Both the position numbers and the translations under genes were made by a program. From Melioribacteraceae bacterium (lineage in GTDB: Bacteria; Bacteroidota; Ignavibacteria; Ignavibacteriales; Melioribacteraceae): a stretch of DNA of 33,411 nt. Under the pieces are notes generated by a model. It searched no databases. It was not told the origin of the DNA and saw only the letters and a program-made list of their open reading frames with translations. The DNA is taken from contig JALWGH010000185.1 in NCBI GenBank assembly GCA_027013735.1, positions 1 through 33,411 on the forward strand, in the 5' to 3' direction. Below are positions 21,651-27,486 of this stretch, in pieces (within the stretch, counting starts at the first letter, position 1; each line of letters starts with the position of its first letter).

Positions 21651-24125
21651 TTAAAATTCCTGCTGATTAAAAAGGATTTTGAACGTTGTGCCTTTGTCTT
21701 TTTCAGTGTTTGTGGATATTTCCGCACCAATTATTTCACAATATTTTTTAACGAGCGTTAACCCGAGACCGAGCCCTTGGTACTGCCTCGTAGAGCCTTC
21801 GGACTCCTGTGAAAACGGAGTAAATATTTTATTGAGAAATTCTTTTTTAATCCCTATTCCCGTGTCGCTTACTTCAAAATAAAGACGGTTTAAATTGTCC
21901 CTGCCAACAACAATGTTAACGCTTCCTTCATTTGTAAACTTCACGGCATTGTCAATCAGTTGCTCGGCTATTTTATTCACAGCGTTAAAGTCGGATTTCA
22001 AAAGTGTGTTTTTTGTGTTCTTTTTTAACGAGATTTTAATCCCTTTCTTTTCGGCTTTTTCTTTGTAAGTGTAATAGACGTTAAACAAAACGTCATCGTG
22101 AAGGTCAAACTCCCTGATTTTAGGAGAGTAGTAGTTCAACTCCATTTCGGTAACATTTAAAATTAAATCTACCGTTCGTTCAAGCCTGCGGCTGCCTTTC
22201 TTAATTGTTTCCAATTCCATTTCGTGTTTTTCTTTAAAGTCTTCGTCCATTTCTTCTTCGAGCAAAGCCAAATAATTAAAAATAATGTTTAACGGTGTTC
22301 TCATTTCGTGGGAGACTTGCGCGATGAACTCCGTTTTTAGCTTGTCCGCTGCCTCGGCTTTTTTTTGTGCAAGTTTTATTAGCTCTTCGCTCTTTCTAAT
22401 TTCCGTAATATCGTAAATGTAACCTTGCACTGCCGGCTTGCCCTCGTATTTAATGTGTTGTGCGTAAATTAATACGTTTACAAGGGTGTCATCTTGACGA
22501 ACAAATATTTCTTCTTGTCCATTAACACTTTTTTCTCCGGCAAATAGATTTTCCATCCTTTCTTTTGCAGATTGCAAATAATCCGGGTGGATAAAGCTAA
22601 AAATTTCTTTTCCGATAATGTCTTCCGCTTTTTCGTAACCAAGAGTTTTGGCAAGAGCGTCATTAGAGAAAACGATTTTCCCTTCCTGAACTATTAACAT
22701 TCCGATTGGCGAAAGGGAAATTAGTTTCCTGTATTTTTCTTCATTATCCCTGATTTCCTTCTCTGCTTTTTTTATTTCAGTCAAGTCTCTGAAAAATATC
22801 TGGATCTCGTTTGCCTCGGTTTTTTTAGCCCGTATTTCTACCGGCACCAATGCCCCGTCTTTTCTGAGCAGTTCCCTCTCCATTGAGATTTCTTGCCCGA
22901 TTTGCAATACCGAATATTGAGCCGGCTTAACTTTTAATTCTTCCTTTGTGAAAAAATTAGTAATGTGTTGATTTAACATTTCTTCTTTTTCGTACCCTGT
23001 AAGGTCAATCATTTTTTTGTTTGCTTCAATAATAATACCGTTATTGTCAAGTAATAAGATTCCGGCTAAAGCATCGTTGAAAACTCTAAAATATTTTTGC
23101 TCGGCATGGAACAGCTTTTCGCTCATTGATTTTAATCTCGTAATGTCCGCCAAAACGTAGAGTTTATAATTAACTTCGCTAACAGAAAAATCGTACGAAC
23201 TTATTGAAATAAAACTTGAAGTGCTTCTAATTGATTTAATCATTGCTTTAAAATTTTCGAACCGAGAGCCTGACAATATCTCTTTTTTTAGCTTTTCCCT
23301 TTCCGATTCGTTTTCCCAAATGTCGGCATCAATAAAATTTTCTCCCAATATGCTTTCCTTTGGCAAACCTGTAATTCTCAAAAAAGCTTTGTTTACTTCA
23401 ACGATTACGTGGTCTTCCGCTCTTGTTACAACCAAGGCGTGAGGAGAAACGTCGATTAAAATCTCATTTAGAGATTTGTCCCAAGCATACGCCCCGTTTG
23501 TCTTTTTAATACGAGCCTCAAGAAGTTTGTTTTTCTTTTCGAGGTTTTCCGTCAAGTAAATGTTTTCAATTCTTAATTTAATTAAATCGAGAGCGCTTTG
23601 TATTGCAATAATTTTCTTCCTCAAGCGGGACAAGTCATTTCTGCTTGTAACAAAAAAGAAAAATTCTTTTGTGCCGGAAAAATCAACTGCGATTGCAAGA
23701 GCGTAGGCGGGAGTAAAGTCATTAAAGTTTAACTTGAATTTTATTTCATCGTTGCCGTCAGATATTTTTCTAATGAAAAGTCCTTCTTCTGAAAATAATT
23801 TCTTAATTAGACTTCTGCCGATACTAAACTCCGAAAGCGCATTACCCTCTATTGGCAAGGATGTGTATTCCCTTGTTATTTTTGCTTTTCCTTCTTCGGA
23901 CACTTTGCAAAAAGCAACGTAGGGAAAATTTTCCGCAAGGGAAAAGCGCCTCAAGGTAAAATCAATGATGCTTTCCCTGTCGTTTAATTTCAAGAGCTCG
24001 CGGCTAACTTCTATTATCTTAGCCGTCTCGGTAGTTCGTTCGGACAAAGTTTGGTTTGTAACCTTTAACCGTTCAAGCTCCGCAAAAAGATTTTCTACCT
24101 TTTCTCTTTGTTGATAGTTGCTCAT
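21651..24125 (-). CDS. Soluble multi-PAS sensor histidine kinase with intact H-box
   Basis: An 824-residue protein without membrane segments. Order: N-terminal coiled coil (1-35), a GAF-like region (about 40-185), three PAS domains (about 218-331, 338-453, 459-581), a HisKA helix pair with the phospho-acceptor His606 in VSHEMRTPLN, and a HATPase domain with N-box EQLIDNAVKFTN, G1 DTGIGI and G2 GLGLGLTL. All catalytic parts are present. ATG 24125 is used because GAGGG precedes it; a GTG at 24137 overlaps the previous stop (GTGA), so translation is coupled either way. It is last in an operon with a PhnD-like protein and a second, degenerate kinase. No receiver-domain gene is near. Confidence 0.92.
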   Translation of the reverse strand: MSNYQQREKVENLFAELERLKVTNQTLSERTTETAKIIEVSRELLKLNDRESIIDFTLRRFSLAENFPYVAFCKVSEEGKAKITREYTSLPIEGNALSEFSIGRSLIKKLFSEEGLFIRKISDGNDEIKFKLNFNDFTPAYALAIAVDFSGTKEFFFFVTSRNDLSRLRKKIIAIQSALDLIKLRIENIYLTENLEKKNKLLEARIKKTNGAYAWDKSLNEILIDVSPHALVVTRAEDHVIVEVNKAFLRITGLPKESILGENFIDADIWENESEREKLKKEILSGSRFENFKAMIKSIRSTSSFISISSYDFSVSEVNYKLYVLADITRLKSMSEKLFHAEQKYFRVFNDALAGILLLDNNGIIIEANKKMIDLTGYEKEEMLNQHITNFFTKEELKVKPAQYSVLQIGQEISMERELLRKDGALVPVEIRAKKTEANEIQIFFRDLTEIKKAEKEIRDNEEKYRKLISLSPIGMLIVQEGKIVFSNDALAKTLGYEKAEDIIGKEIFSFIHPDYLQSAKERMENLFAGEKSVNGQEEIFVRQDDTLVNVLIYAQHIKYEGKPAVQGYIYDITEIRKSEELIKLAQKKAEAADKLKTEFIAQVSHEMRTPLNIIFNYLALLEEEMDEDFKEKHEMELETIKKGSRRLERTVDLILNVTEMELNYYSPKIREFDLHDDVLFNVYYTYKEKAEKKGIKISLKKNTKNTLLKSDFNAVNKIAEQLIDNAVKFTNEGSVNIVVGRDNLNRLYFEVSDTGIGIKKEFLNKIFTPFSQESEGSTRQYQGLGLGLTLVKKYCEIIGAEISTNTEKDKGTTFKILFNQQEF

Positions 24126-24133
24126 CTTTTCCC

Positions 24134-26191
24134 TCACGAAAATATTAGTCTGAAAACACTTCCCTTATTCTTTTTGCTTTCAACCTCAAGTTTGATATTG
24201 TTAATTTCGCAATACTTTTTAACGAGCGCAAGCCCCATTCCGATTCCACCTGTCATGTTGCTTTCGTAAACATCAATTGAAAAAGGTTTAAAAATATTTT
24301 GCATAAATTCTTCCGACATTCCTATTCCGGTATCCTTAACCTCGGAAACAACGTGCCCGTCTTTTACAAAAAGGGTTACTTCAACGCTTCCTTCGGGTGT
24401 GTATTTTATTGCGTTGTCAATAAGGTTTAAGTAAATATTTCTCAAAGAATTAATATCACCTTGAACTGAAACGTTTTCTGCTTCATTGTTAATTTTAAAA
24501 CGCAAGCCTTTTCTTTCTGCTTCGGGTTTTAATTTCTGAAATACTTCAAGAATAACCTCCTCAAACAAATCAATGTAATCAATTACAGGTTTGTAATCGC
24601 CAAGTTCTATTTCGGCGTAATTTAGCACAAGCTCGGTGTTCCGCATTATTCGGATTCCGTTTTTCTGTAAATTCTGAAGAATATAATTGACTTCCCCATC
24701 TTCCTCCGCAGACATATATTTCAGTAAGAGTTTACCGTATTTAAGCGAGGATTTAACAGGTACTTCAATTTCCTGATAAATCTGTTTAAGGAATCTTCCT
24801 TTCATTGCGTCGGCGGCTTCGGCTCTTTCTTTTGCTTCTTTTAATAATTTCTTTGCTTTCACCTCCTCTGTAATGTCTTTCTGAATTGCCAAAAAGCCAA
24901 TTATTTCGCCGTCGGAAATAATAGGCGAAGCCGATGCGGCTACGGTAATTAACTTACCGTCTTTGGTTTTGTTTACAATTTCTCCCGTAAATGTCTCTTT
25001 GCTAAGCAAAGTATTCCAAAGTTTTTCGTAAACTTTTGGGGGATGTTTGCCTGATTTTAATATCCTTGGAGTTTTACCAAGCACTTCCTTGGGCTCGTAG
25101 CCGTAAAGTTTCTGAAAACCTTGATTTACAAAGTCAATTTTGCCGTCAATATCCGTAATAAATACCGCTTCTTCTAACTTTTCTATTCCAAGCTTTAATT
25201 TGAATAATTCTTCCTCTTTAGCCTTTAATTCGGTAATGTCAACGTTGTACTCAATAAGTTGAATGAGTTCGCCCGATTCGTCAAAGACAGGATAACCGTA
25301 AATCCGGAAGATTTTTTCAGCGCCTAATTTATCCCGATGTTTATGTTCAACCACACTGGGCTTGCCGGTCTCTTTTGCAATTTTTAATGGACAGGGGTAA
25401 TTTTCTCCACTGCACGGCTCAGGTAATCCGTGAGTTTCCCAATGGCAGTAGATTTTGTTCCGCCCTATTTCCAATTGGGACGCTGGATTTGCGTAAACTA
25501 TTGAATAATCAAGGGCATCTATTACATAAAAAGGATTTGTTACTGTTTTCATTACTTTTTCAAGGAAGTCGCTTTTCTCACGTGTTTCTTTTTCCAGCTC
25601 TTTTCTTTTTCTAACTTCTTCTTGAAGGTCATCATAAGCTTTTCTTAACTCCTGGTTTTTATTATTTAAACTTTCTAATGTTCTTTTTCTGACGAGATAT
25701 TCTTTGTTGAGTATTAAAAGTAGGATGCTCGAAGCAGTAATAATTACTAACAAAACAAAAAACAGGTATAAAGTATTGATGTAAAGATATTCCGTGGTAA
25801 ATGTAATGGTTAATATTGCTTTGCCCCTGTAAGAATAATGTATTGAAATTTTCTTTTTTAGGTAATGCTCGGGATCTTTTATGTTTGTTTTTTGAAATAT
25901 AACAAACTTATTTTTTGAAACTAACGAAATACTAGCGCAAGAATGTTTTTTTATAAGCATATATTTATTCAAATAAGAACGGGCTCCTGTGTAATCACCC
26001 TTTTGTAAATAATCTTTTAATGTTACTATTACAATTGAAAGATTAGTATTAAAATTTTTTGCAGCCTTTTTCTTTTGTAGATTAAAATAATAAAATAAAG
26101 TTCCCCCACCTACTAACACTTGAAAAAAAATGAGTCCCCAAACTATAAGCCTGCTTTTTTCTTTTTGCAATATTTTTTTTAGACTAAACAT
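24134..26191 (-). CDS. Membrane PAS sensor kinase lacking the phospho-acceptor His (pseudo-histidine kinase)
   Basis: A 685-residue inner-membrane protein: helix 1 (about 14-36), an external domain of about 100 residues, helix 2 (about 138-161), a coiled coil (163-207), PAS A (about 208-322, with Cys249, Cys260 and Cys267), PAS B (about 330-442), a DHp-like helix pair and a HATPase domain. In the DHp helix the usual SHEIRTPLN reads YQEIEVPVK, so His is Gln473 (codon CAG at 24773-24775). The R-T pair after it is also lost. The ATP site looks intact: NLIDNAIKYT, DTGIGM, GGIGMGLAL. It cannot autophosphorylate at the normal position, but may bind ATP and pair with the downstream kinase. It begins 8 bases after the PhnD-like gene. 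Confidence 0.9.
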   Translation of the reverse strand: MFSLKKILQKEKSRLIVWGLIFFQVLVGGGTLFYYFNLQKKKAAKNFNTNLSIVIVTLKDYLQKGDYTGARSYLNKYMLIKKHSCASISLVSKNKFVIFQKTNIKDPEHYLKKKISIHYSYRGKAILTITFTTEYLYINTLYLFFVLLVIITASSILLLILNKEYLVRKRTLESLNNKNQELRKAYDDLQEEVRKRKELEKETREKSDFLEKVMKTVTNPFYVIDALDYSIVYANPASQLEIGRNKIYCHWETHGLPEPCSGENYPCPLKIAKETGKPSVVEHKHRDKLGAEKIFRIYGYPVFDESGELIQLIEYNVDITELKAKEEELFKLKLGIEKLEEAVFITDIDGKIDFVNQGFQKLYGYEPKEVLGKTPRILKSGKHPPKVYEKLWNTLLSKETFTGEIVNKTKDGKLITVAASASPIISDGEIIGFLAIQKDITEEVKAKKLLKEAKERAEAADAMKGRFLKQIYQEIEVPVKSSLKYGKLLLKYMSAEEDGEVNYILQNLQKNGIRIMRNTELVLNYAEIELGDYKPVIDYIDLFEEVILEVFQKLKPEAERKGLRFKINNEAENVSVQGDINSLRNIYLNLIDNAIKYTPEGSVEVTLFVKDGHVVSEVKDTGIGMSEEFMQNIFKPFSIDVYESNMTGGIGMGLALVKKYCEINNIKLEVESKKNKGSVFRLIFS

Positions 26192-26199
26192 TATTAAAA

Positions 26200-27042
26200 T
26201 TACTTCATATATTCTCTTAAAACGTCATAATTCTTGTCGTTCGCAGGTTCTATTCCCGTTGCTTCCGAGTTTATTGATTTCAAAACATTTAAGCCTTCCT
26301 TGGTTTTATTCAGGTCAAAAAATGCTTGTTGTATTTTGCGAAAAAACTTATTAGGCATAGTCCTTTTAACCAAGAACAAATGCTCAGGCATTAGAGGAGT
26401 TGTCGCAATTACTTTTATTGCATTGTTTTTGAATCTGTTGTAAACTTCTTCTTTAACCGCCCCCGCGTCATAGTCTCCGGCAAGAATTCCGTAAACCACA
26501 TTCTCGTGGGTTCCAACAAAATTGTAGTATTTTAAAGAACTTAATTTTACTCCTGCTTTTAGCAGCATTTTCTTAGGGACAATAAATCCCATCGTAGATT
26601 CTTTTTGTACAAAAGCAAAGGATTTGCCAATTAAATCTTTTATTGAAAATATTGGTGCATCTTTAGAAGCAATAATTTTTCCCCTAAAGAATGGCTTACC
26701 GTTAACATCCAAAGTCCCCACTGTCTTTTGATAGCCATATTCATTTAGAAGTAAAACGTATTCGGAGGGACCAACAAATGCAATATCAACTTTATTTAAT
26801 CCGATACTTTTAATATGGTTTGCATAAGAGTAGCCAATTTTAATAATTATTCCTCTTTTTAATTTTTTAGAAAGGTAAATTCTTAAAGGCGAGAATCTTT
26901 TAATAATTTCTTTTCTTGACAGATAGGGATGAATGCCAAAAACAAGGTAATCCTGAGCCGTAGTGGTTGTAAACCCCAATAAAATCAGAGTTAAAACAAG
27001 AATGCTTTTTTTAAAACCACGTTTCGGCTTGACAGGCATCAT
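26200..27042 (-). CDS. PhnD-like periplasmic substrate-binding protein
   Basis: A 280-residue exported protein of the phosphate/phosphite/phosphonate-binding (PhnD) family. After a basic stretch and signal (SILVLTLILLGFTTTTAQ) come DYLVFGIHPYLSRKEIIKRF, the ligand-loop part VDIAFVGPSEYVLL and the lobe-two part GDYDAGAVKEEVYNRF, all characteristic. ATG 27042 is chosen because a promoter places the transcript start at about 27081, which excludes an upstream TTG at 27090. No permease or ATPase gene follows; instead two sensor kinases do. It is therefore probably a sensory co-receptor that presents a ligand to the membrane kinase rather than a transport component. PhnD-family ligands are diverse, so phosphonate is not assured. 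Confidence 0.87.
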   Translation of the reverse strand: MMPVKPKRGFKKSILVLTLILLGFTTTTAQDYLVFGIHPYLSRKEIIKRFSPLRIYLSKKLKRGIIIKIGYSYANHIKSIGLNKVDIAFVGPSEYVLLLNEYGYQKTVGTLDVNGKPFFRGKIIASKDAPIFSIKDLIGKSFAFVQKESTMGFIVPKKMLLKAGVKLSSLKYYNFVGTHENVVYGILAGDYDAGAVKEEVYNRFKNNAIKVIATTPLMPEHLFLVKRTMPNKFFRKIQQAFFDLNKTKEGLNVLKSINSEATGIEPANDKNYDVLREYMK

Positions 27043-27087: not shown

Positions 27088-27119
27088 CAAAATTATGGAA
27101 TCGAGTAGATAAATTCAAA
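27088..27119 (-). promoter_or_regulatory. Bacteroidota-type promoter of the PhnD-kinase operon
   Basis: On the minus strand, TTTG (27116-27119), 20 bases, then TAATTTTG (27088-27095), an exact fit to TTTG-N19-21-TAnnTTTG. Start site about 27081, leader about 39 bases. Confidence 0.7.
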
Positions 27120-27190
27120 TCCTTTACGAAATAAAATTTTATTTTTGCTGATTTTAAGAGAAGGGAGAAGTCAAACGTGGGAAGTAAGCA

Positions 27191-27413
27191 ATCCAATTGT
27201 CCATTCATCCATGCATCCAATCATCCAGCGCTGTAAAATTTTCCACTTTCAATTTTCAATTAAATAAGTCTTAAGTAACGCGTGACGAGTCTTAAGTCTC
27301 TGTTCACTGTTATCTGTTCTCTGAATAGTCCTAACGTCTTACTTCTAGCGTCTCGCGTCTAGCGAAAGACACCTGTCGCGGCGTAGCCCGAACAAAGTGA
27401 GGGCGAAGACGGA
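27191..27413. repeat. Second copy of the repeat mosaic
   Basis: The 444-base gap between the PhnD-like and hisN genes holds an ATCC-rich stretch whose first 20 bases (27191-27210) match 17596-17615 in reverse complement at 19 of 20, one copy of the 25-base unit (27300-27324, one mismatch to 17661-17685), a stretch sharing CTAACGTCTT with 18028-18037, and one hairpin unit (27375-27413). GGAT-type, 25-base and hairpin modules come in the same order as upstream of gatB. No gene is seen in the rest of the gap. Confidence 0.7.
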
Positions 27414-27486
27414 TTTCTTATTTCTCGTTTCTTCTTTCTTATATTTAACGCCAATTAAGAACTCGCACCAGAAAAGGCAGCATCAA

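Follow-up and report, generated by a model that had tools for sequence, protein, structure and literature searches.

A PhnD-like protein, a kinase lacking its acceptor histidine and a soluble histidine kinase as a candidate three-gene sensor in one genus of Melioribacteraceae

Three adjoining minus-strand genes encoding a PhnD-like periplasmic binding protein, a membrane kinase (HK1) and a soluble kinase (HK2) occupy positions 21651-27042 of the window, that is, of the whole stretch of 33,411 nucleotides analysed here (Table 1). The window is part of contig C185 (33,990 bases) of source genome G000, a 3.1 Mb assembly in 356 contigs with a completeness of 97.7%, and was compared with two congeners, G001 and G002, both of which are MAGs. 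All three genomes are drafts broken into 356 to 640 contigs, and contamination in G001 is 7%. The open reading frames and domains are those claimed in an earlier note on this DNA, as is their spacing: a gap of 8 bases separates the PhnD-like gene from HK1, and the HK1 and HK2 genes then overlap at GTGA, with an AGGG-led ATG sitting just within HK2. From the list of open reading frames, an alternative upstream start of the PhnD-like gene, a TTG at 27090, is possible.

Table 1. Features of the PhnD-HK1-HK2 locus, in window coordinates.
Feature	Position	Strand	Basis or detail
PhnD-like periplasmic binding protein	26200..27042	-	280 aa from ATG 27042; PF12974 8e-62, TIGR01098
HK1, two-TM PAS kinase without phosphoacceptor His, 685 aa	24134..26191	-	domain profiles, alignment, AF2 model
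HK2, soluble kinase, 828 aa	21651..24137	-	PAS x3, HisKA and HATPase_c profile matches
HK1 residue 473 (Gln) codon, phosphoacceptor His position	24773..24775	-	alignment; congeners Glu, Asp
HK1 first PAS Cys/His set C249, H254, C260, C267	25391..25447	-	invariant in 3 species
HK2 phosphoacceptor His codon	22308..22310	-	HisKA match
Promoter-like sequence TTTG-N20-TAATTTTG	27088..27119	-	pattern proposed by the earlier note

The promoter that the three genes had been said to share gained no support. The promoter-like sequence fits TTTG-N20-TAnnTTTG exactly, but the window has two such matches where 1.05 would be expected, and the pattern is absent 5' of the PhnD-like gene in both congeners, so a shared promoter is unproven, and it was rejected as evidence for an operon because the pattern is found at chance level. 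In the intergenic sequence at 27100-27480, pieces of 20-80 bases recur at 83-97% identity elsewhere in the window, on further contigs of the source genome and in one of the congeners, which on sequence marks it as a dispersed intergenic repeat.

By profile and fold, the PhnD-like protein belongs to the PhnD-family substrate-binding proteins (PF12974). It scores 209 bits against PF12974 (cut-off 27; E = 8e-62), passes the TIGR01098 cut-off without reaching the PhnD equivalog cut-off, carries an N-terminal signal-like stretch, and has a confidently predicted fold (model pLDDT 93.9) whose nearest solved structures are PtxB, ArrX, AioX and PhnD. In the pocket region Ser149 and His179 are retained, and Met/Val at 151, Phe119 and EHL at 220-222 stand where the copies linked to ABC genes have Ser, Tyr and NDP. 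Five residues on one pocket face, two Ser, two Tyr and one His, are common to AioX and PhnD (PMC5908839). Against the AioX pocket set (Tyr88, Cys106, Tyr131, Ser161, Ser163, His192 and Asp210, the position of Cys106 being unmapped), aligning the profile to ArrX and PtxB places Met/Val at the second Ser, and Phe119 probably corresponds to one of the Tyr. As residues shared by AioX and PhnD are thus partly changed here, the protein may possibly bind an unusual ligand.

HK1 comprises two PAS domains, an HATPase_c domain and two hydrophobic transmembrane segments, and HisKA (PF00512) was unmatched in it by profile search. In the kinase alignment, the position of the phosphoacceptor histidine holds Gln in HK1 of the window, Glu in G001 and Asp in G002. 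The histidine is kept in 53 of 59 aligned rows, some of which repeat one gene, and the six rows without it are all copies of HK1, so HK1 cannot take phosphate at the usual site. After the acceptor position the Glu and Pro are retained and EVP replaces RTP in all three species; the Thr of the HExxTP motif has been associated with phosphatase function. In the alignment, HK1 has intact N, G1, F and G2 boxes. Between the window and G001, identity reaches 67% in the CA domain and 59% in the DHp, compared with 37% in the transmembrane and periplasmic part, and the frame is open and conserved across the three species at 42-55% identity. The label of pseudokinase given to HK1 in the earlier note is therefore half right: the acceptor histidine is gone, but the ATP-site boxes are intact and the CA domain is conserved, and with an intact ATP site HK1 need not be dead. 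Judged from the alignment, HK1 resembles the DivL type in that its phosphoacceptor histidine is replaced, kinase activity being a separate matter.

The AF2 model of HK1 (mean pLDDT 77.6, pTM 0.38, with an unreliable relative placement of domains) contains, at moderate confidence, a long DHp-like helical hairpin and a CA fold. The Cys/His set of the first PAS domain is a possible metal or cofactor site. Further proteins of the class contain PAS stretches related to this domain; the whole N-terminus of HK1 was not found outside the genus, matches elsewhere being to its PAS part alone.

HK2, in which no transmembrane segments were found, consists of a conserved, unassigned N-terminus, three PAS domains, HisKA (PF00512, 3e-12) and HATPase_c (PF02518, 8e-22), and by these matches it is assigned as a HisKA histidine kinase with His, N and G boxes. 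Its phosphoacceptor is residue 606 when counted from the ATG, confirming the His606 named beforehand, and residue 610 when counted from the GTG. The DHp of HK2 is 84% identical between the window and G001. Both kinases fall in one subclade of nine rows (support 97/92) inside a larger, genus-rich kinase clade, where two further kinases from the genus cluster with HK1 (94/80) and HK2 is not its nearest sister. Several kinases of this clade in the genus likewise have no adjoining receiver gene.

The three-gene order holds within the genus. G001 has the same genes in the same order, complete and syntenic with the window; as there, gatB and a gene resembling an acyl-CoA synthetase, both identified by translation, lie downstream. 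In G002 the unit is split by a contig end: the PhnD and HK1 genes run to the end of their contig and the HK2 homologue begins at the end of contig C41, and we infer the linkage of HK2 across this break. As the upstream neighbour in G002 differs, being a MATE-like transporter gene, the unit there is not merely old synteny. The objection anticipated in the earlier note, that the order might not be conserved in relatives, thus finds no footing in the genus, to which the unit is confined in the genomes searched. A second HK2 allele of G001, on C380 beside the same synthetase gene, is perhaps from another strain. On C41, genes with many CxxCH motifs (multihaem cytochrome-like) lie convergent to the HK2 homologue of G002 (L155:4644-9000).

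Each of the three genomes in the genus has the PhnD group, whereas the 161 others of the order lack it; in the scan of the order (164 genomes), the three genus members scored 500-540 bits and the next best matches 134-143. No further members were found in the class sample (391) or the phylum sample (395), which overlap. A scan of genome contigs gave no hit for the PhnD protein; with the HK1 N-terminus, such a scan yielded both congeners plus a single weak match.

As had been stated beforehand, no response regulator is encoded at the locus: none of the 33 receiver matches in the genome lies on C185, and a neighbouring regulator was ruled out on this ground. The three HPt matches in the genome are likewise all outside C185. 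On contig C104 of the source genome (L157:702-5044), a receiver gene lies between two HisKA kinases of the larger, genus-rich clade, one of them with a dCache domain. This receiver is one candidate output, with no link to the PhnD-HK1-HK2 locus.

The reading we prefer, at a probability of roughly 0.55, is that ligand-bound PhnD controls HK1, that HK1 controls HK2, and that phosphate passes from the HK2 histidine to an unlinked receiver. The PhnD-family protein would bind an anion-like ligand in the periplasm and dock on the periplasmic part of HK1, feeding no importer. HK1, which on its sequence would accept no phosphate at the usual site and keeps an ATP-binding CA domain, would then control HK2 through a mixed dimer or contact complex, most likely by pairing of their related DHp helices. 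The HK2 histidine would be phosphorylated by the CA domain of either HK1 or HK2, and its phosphate would go to a receiver encoded elsewhere. The flow from PhnD to HK1 to HK2 is plausible given the gene order and spacing, the confinement of histidine loss to HK1, the retained CA boxes and the common subclade. Counting against it, neither kinase is the nearest sister of the other in the tree, and the linkage of HK2 in G002 crosses a contig break.

As the CA domain of HK1 is conserved, we favour, on sequence, use of its ATP site in a mixed dimer over an unused site in a DivL-like adaptor. The strongest of the rival explanations, which we consider unlikely yet worth serious attention, is that HK1 is such a non-catalytic adaptor, sensing a phosphorylated receiver or the ligand and altering HK2 by contact with its ATP site unused. 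DivL, with Tyr in place of His, does regulate CckA (PMC4211667, PMC5361649), and HK1 has also lost the HExxTP Thr; ATP binding by DivL is weak, however, whereas HK1 keeps all ATP-site boxes and a well-conserved CA domain. An obligate mixed dimer driven by the binding protein, with the histidine-less membrane kinase giving the ATP domain and the soluble partner giving the histidine, is a speculative form of pairing that we would not expect. If true, ligand sensing and phosphate acceptance would lie in different chains.

Less probable still is that the two are separate kinases sharing only an operon, HK2 sensing a cytoplasmic signal and HK1 decaying or otherwise partnered. HK2 is indeed soluble with several PAS domains, and in the genus, orphan kinases from its clade that are likewise soluble and multi-PAS are common; against this, HK1 has stayed open and conserved over three species, near PhnD and HK2, and G002 carries the unit in another neighbourhood.

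A role of the PhnD-like protein as a receptor, and not as part of an importer, is well supported. A PhnE-type permease gave no match in the three fragmented drafts of the genus, an absence that rests on incomplete assemblies, since all three are fragmented and G001 is contaminated. Sister genomes with PhnD-PhnC-PhnE loci do carry PhnE, with strong matches (about 1e-75) in G018 and G050, relatives of ABC type, which makes import unlikely in the genus. In the neighbourhood of the PhnD-like gene, no adjoining PhnC ATPase was found. In a tree of 53 PhnD proteins, the ABC-linked set lies on one side of a single branch (support 100/100), and the three proteins of the genus form their own clade outside it (100/98). 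Together with co-inheritance with the kinases, these results support the receptor role proposed in the earlier note. An importer subunit using another ABC permease is very improbable: PF12974 is, by description, a family of binding proteins of ABC transporters and the protein is over the TIGR01098 cut-off, but it lies outside the ABC clade, its pocket is unlike that of the ABC copies at 151, 119 and 220-222, and the idea was rejected chiefly for the missing PhnE.

PhnD relatives in the class, with neighbourhoods assigned through phmmer and motif rules, some of them also inspected by eye, lie in ABC loci, in HK-NtrC loci, in a pair with a chemotaxis receptor, or with single kinases. The source genome itself has a second PhnD-like gene, encoded together with a kinase resembling NtrB and a regulator of NtrC type (L034:187-3902, contig C194). 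In a relative, a PhnD-HK-NtrC-type locus (L040) stands beside CYTH, DASS-like, PhoU-like and Pit-like genes, named by translation only, and in two genomes of the same family a PhnD-like gene lies directly 5' of a methyl-accepting chemotaxis-like receptor gene (L041:7078-9141, L111:4919-7846).

Finally, a limited literature search found no published description of a PhnD-type protein with a histidine-less kinase and an active kinase, an order that was also unfamiliar to the earlier note. Roughly 1% of histidine kinases reportedly lack the histidine, and studies of such bacterial pseudokinases are few (PMC5361649). A receptor protein, an acceptor-less kinase and a normal kinase together in three species provide a natural case, and because the three proteins stay together across these species, a division of labour between kinase chains is directly testable.

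Both halves of the unit, by analogy, have known parallels. For the receptor, these are AioX-AioS-AioR, ArxX and ArrX (PMC5908839), where a PhnD-fold periplasmic receptor, matching in structure, is likewise encoded with a sensor kinase and is not an importer. The AioX pocket differs from the one described here as far as it could be mapped, and AioX-AioS-AioR has one active kinase and a response regulator, whereas here there are two kinases, the first without the histidine. As no regulator is encoded with the locus, it is not of AioXSR type, and by this comparison the unit looks like a rewired three-gene oxyanion sensor, a variant of the AioX-AioS-AioR-like kind. In the tetrathionate and thiosulfate sensors TtrSR and ThsSR (PMC5408782), a PhnD-like sensing domain drives a kinase, as proposed here, although in TtrS and ThsS that domain is fused to the kinase and the regulator is adjacent, neither of which applies to the window. 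The PhnD-HK-NtrC loci of Ignavibacteria, such as that on C194, share the PhnD family and a downstream kinase gene with the window, but their kinase is NtrB-like and keeps its histidine, their regulator is of NtrC type, and their PhnD proteins form a separate clade.

For the kinases, the parallels are histidine-less or split pairs. In DivL-CckA of Caulobacter (PMC4211667), a histidine-less PAS kinase works with an active kinase, as is proposed for HK1 and HK2, but DivL reads a phosphorylated receiver, whereas HK1 is encoded next to a PhnD gene. FasB and FasC of group A Streptococcus are, like HK1 and HK2, two kinase-like proteins of one operon, and are reported to heterodimerise with labour divided between CA domain and histidine (PMC12675982). 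The HK1/HK2 locus differs in that FasC, the proposed pseudokinase, keeps its histidine and has a dispensable CA domain, and in that the regulator FasA is encoded in the operon.
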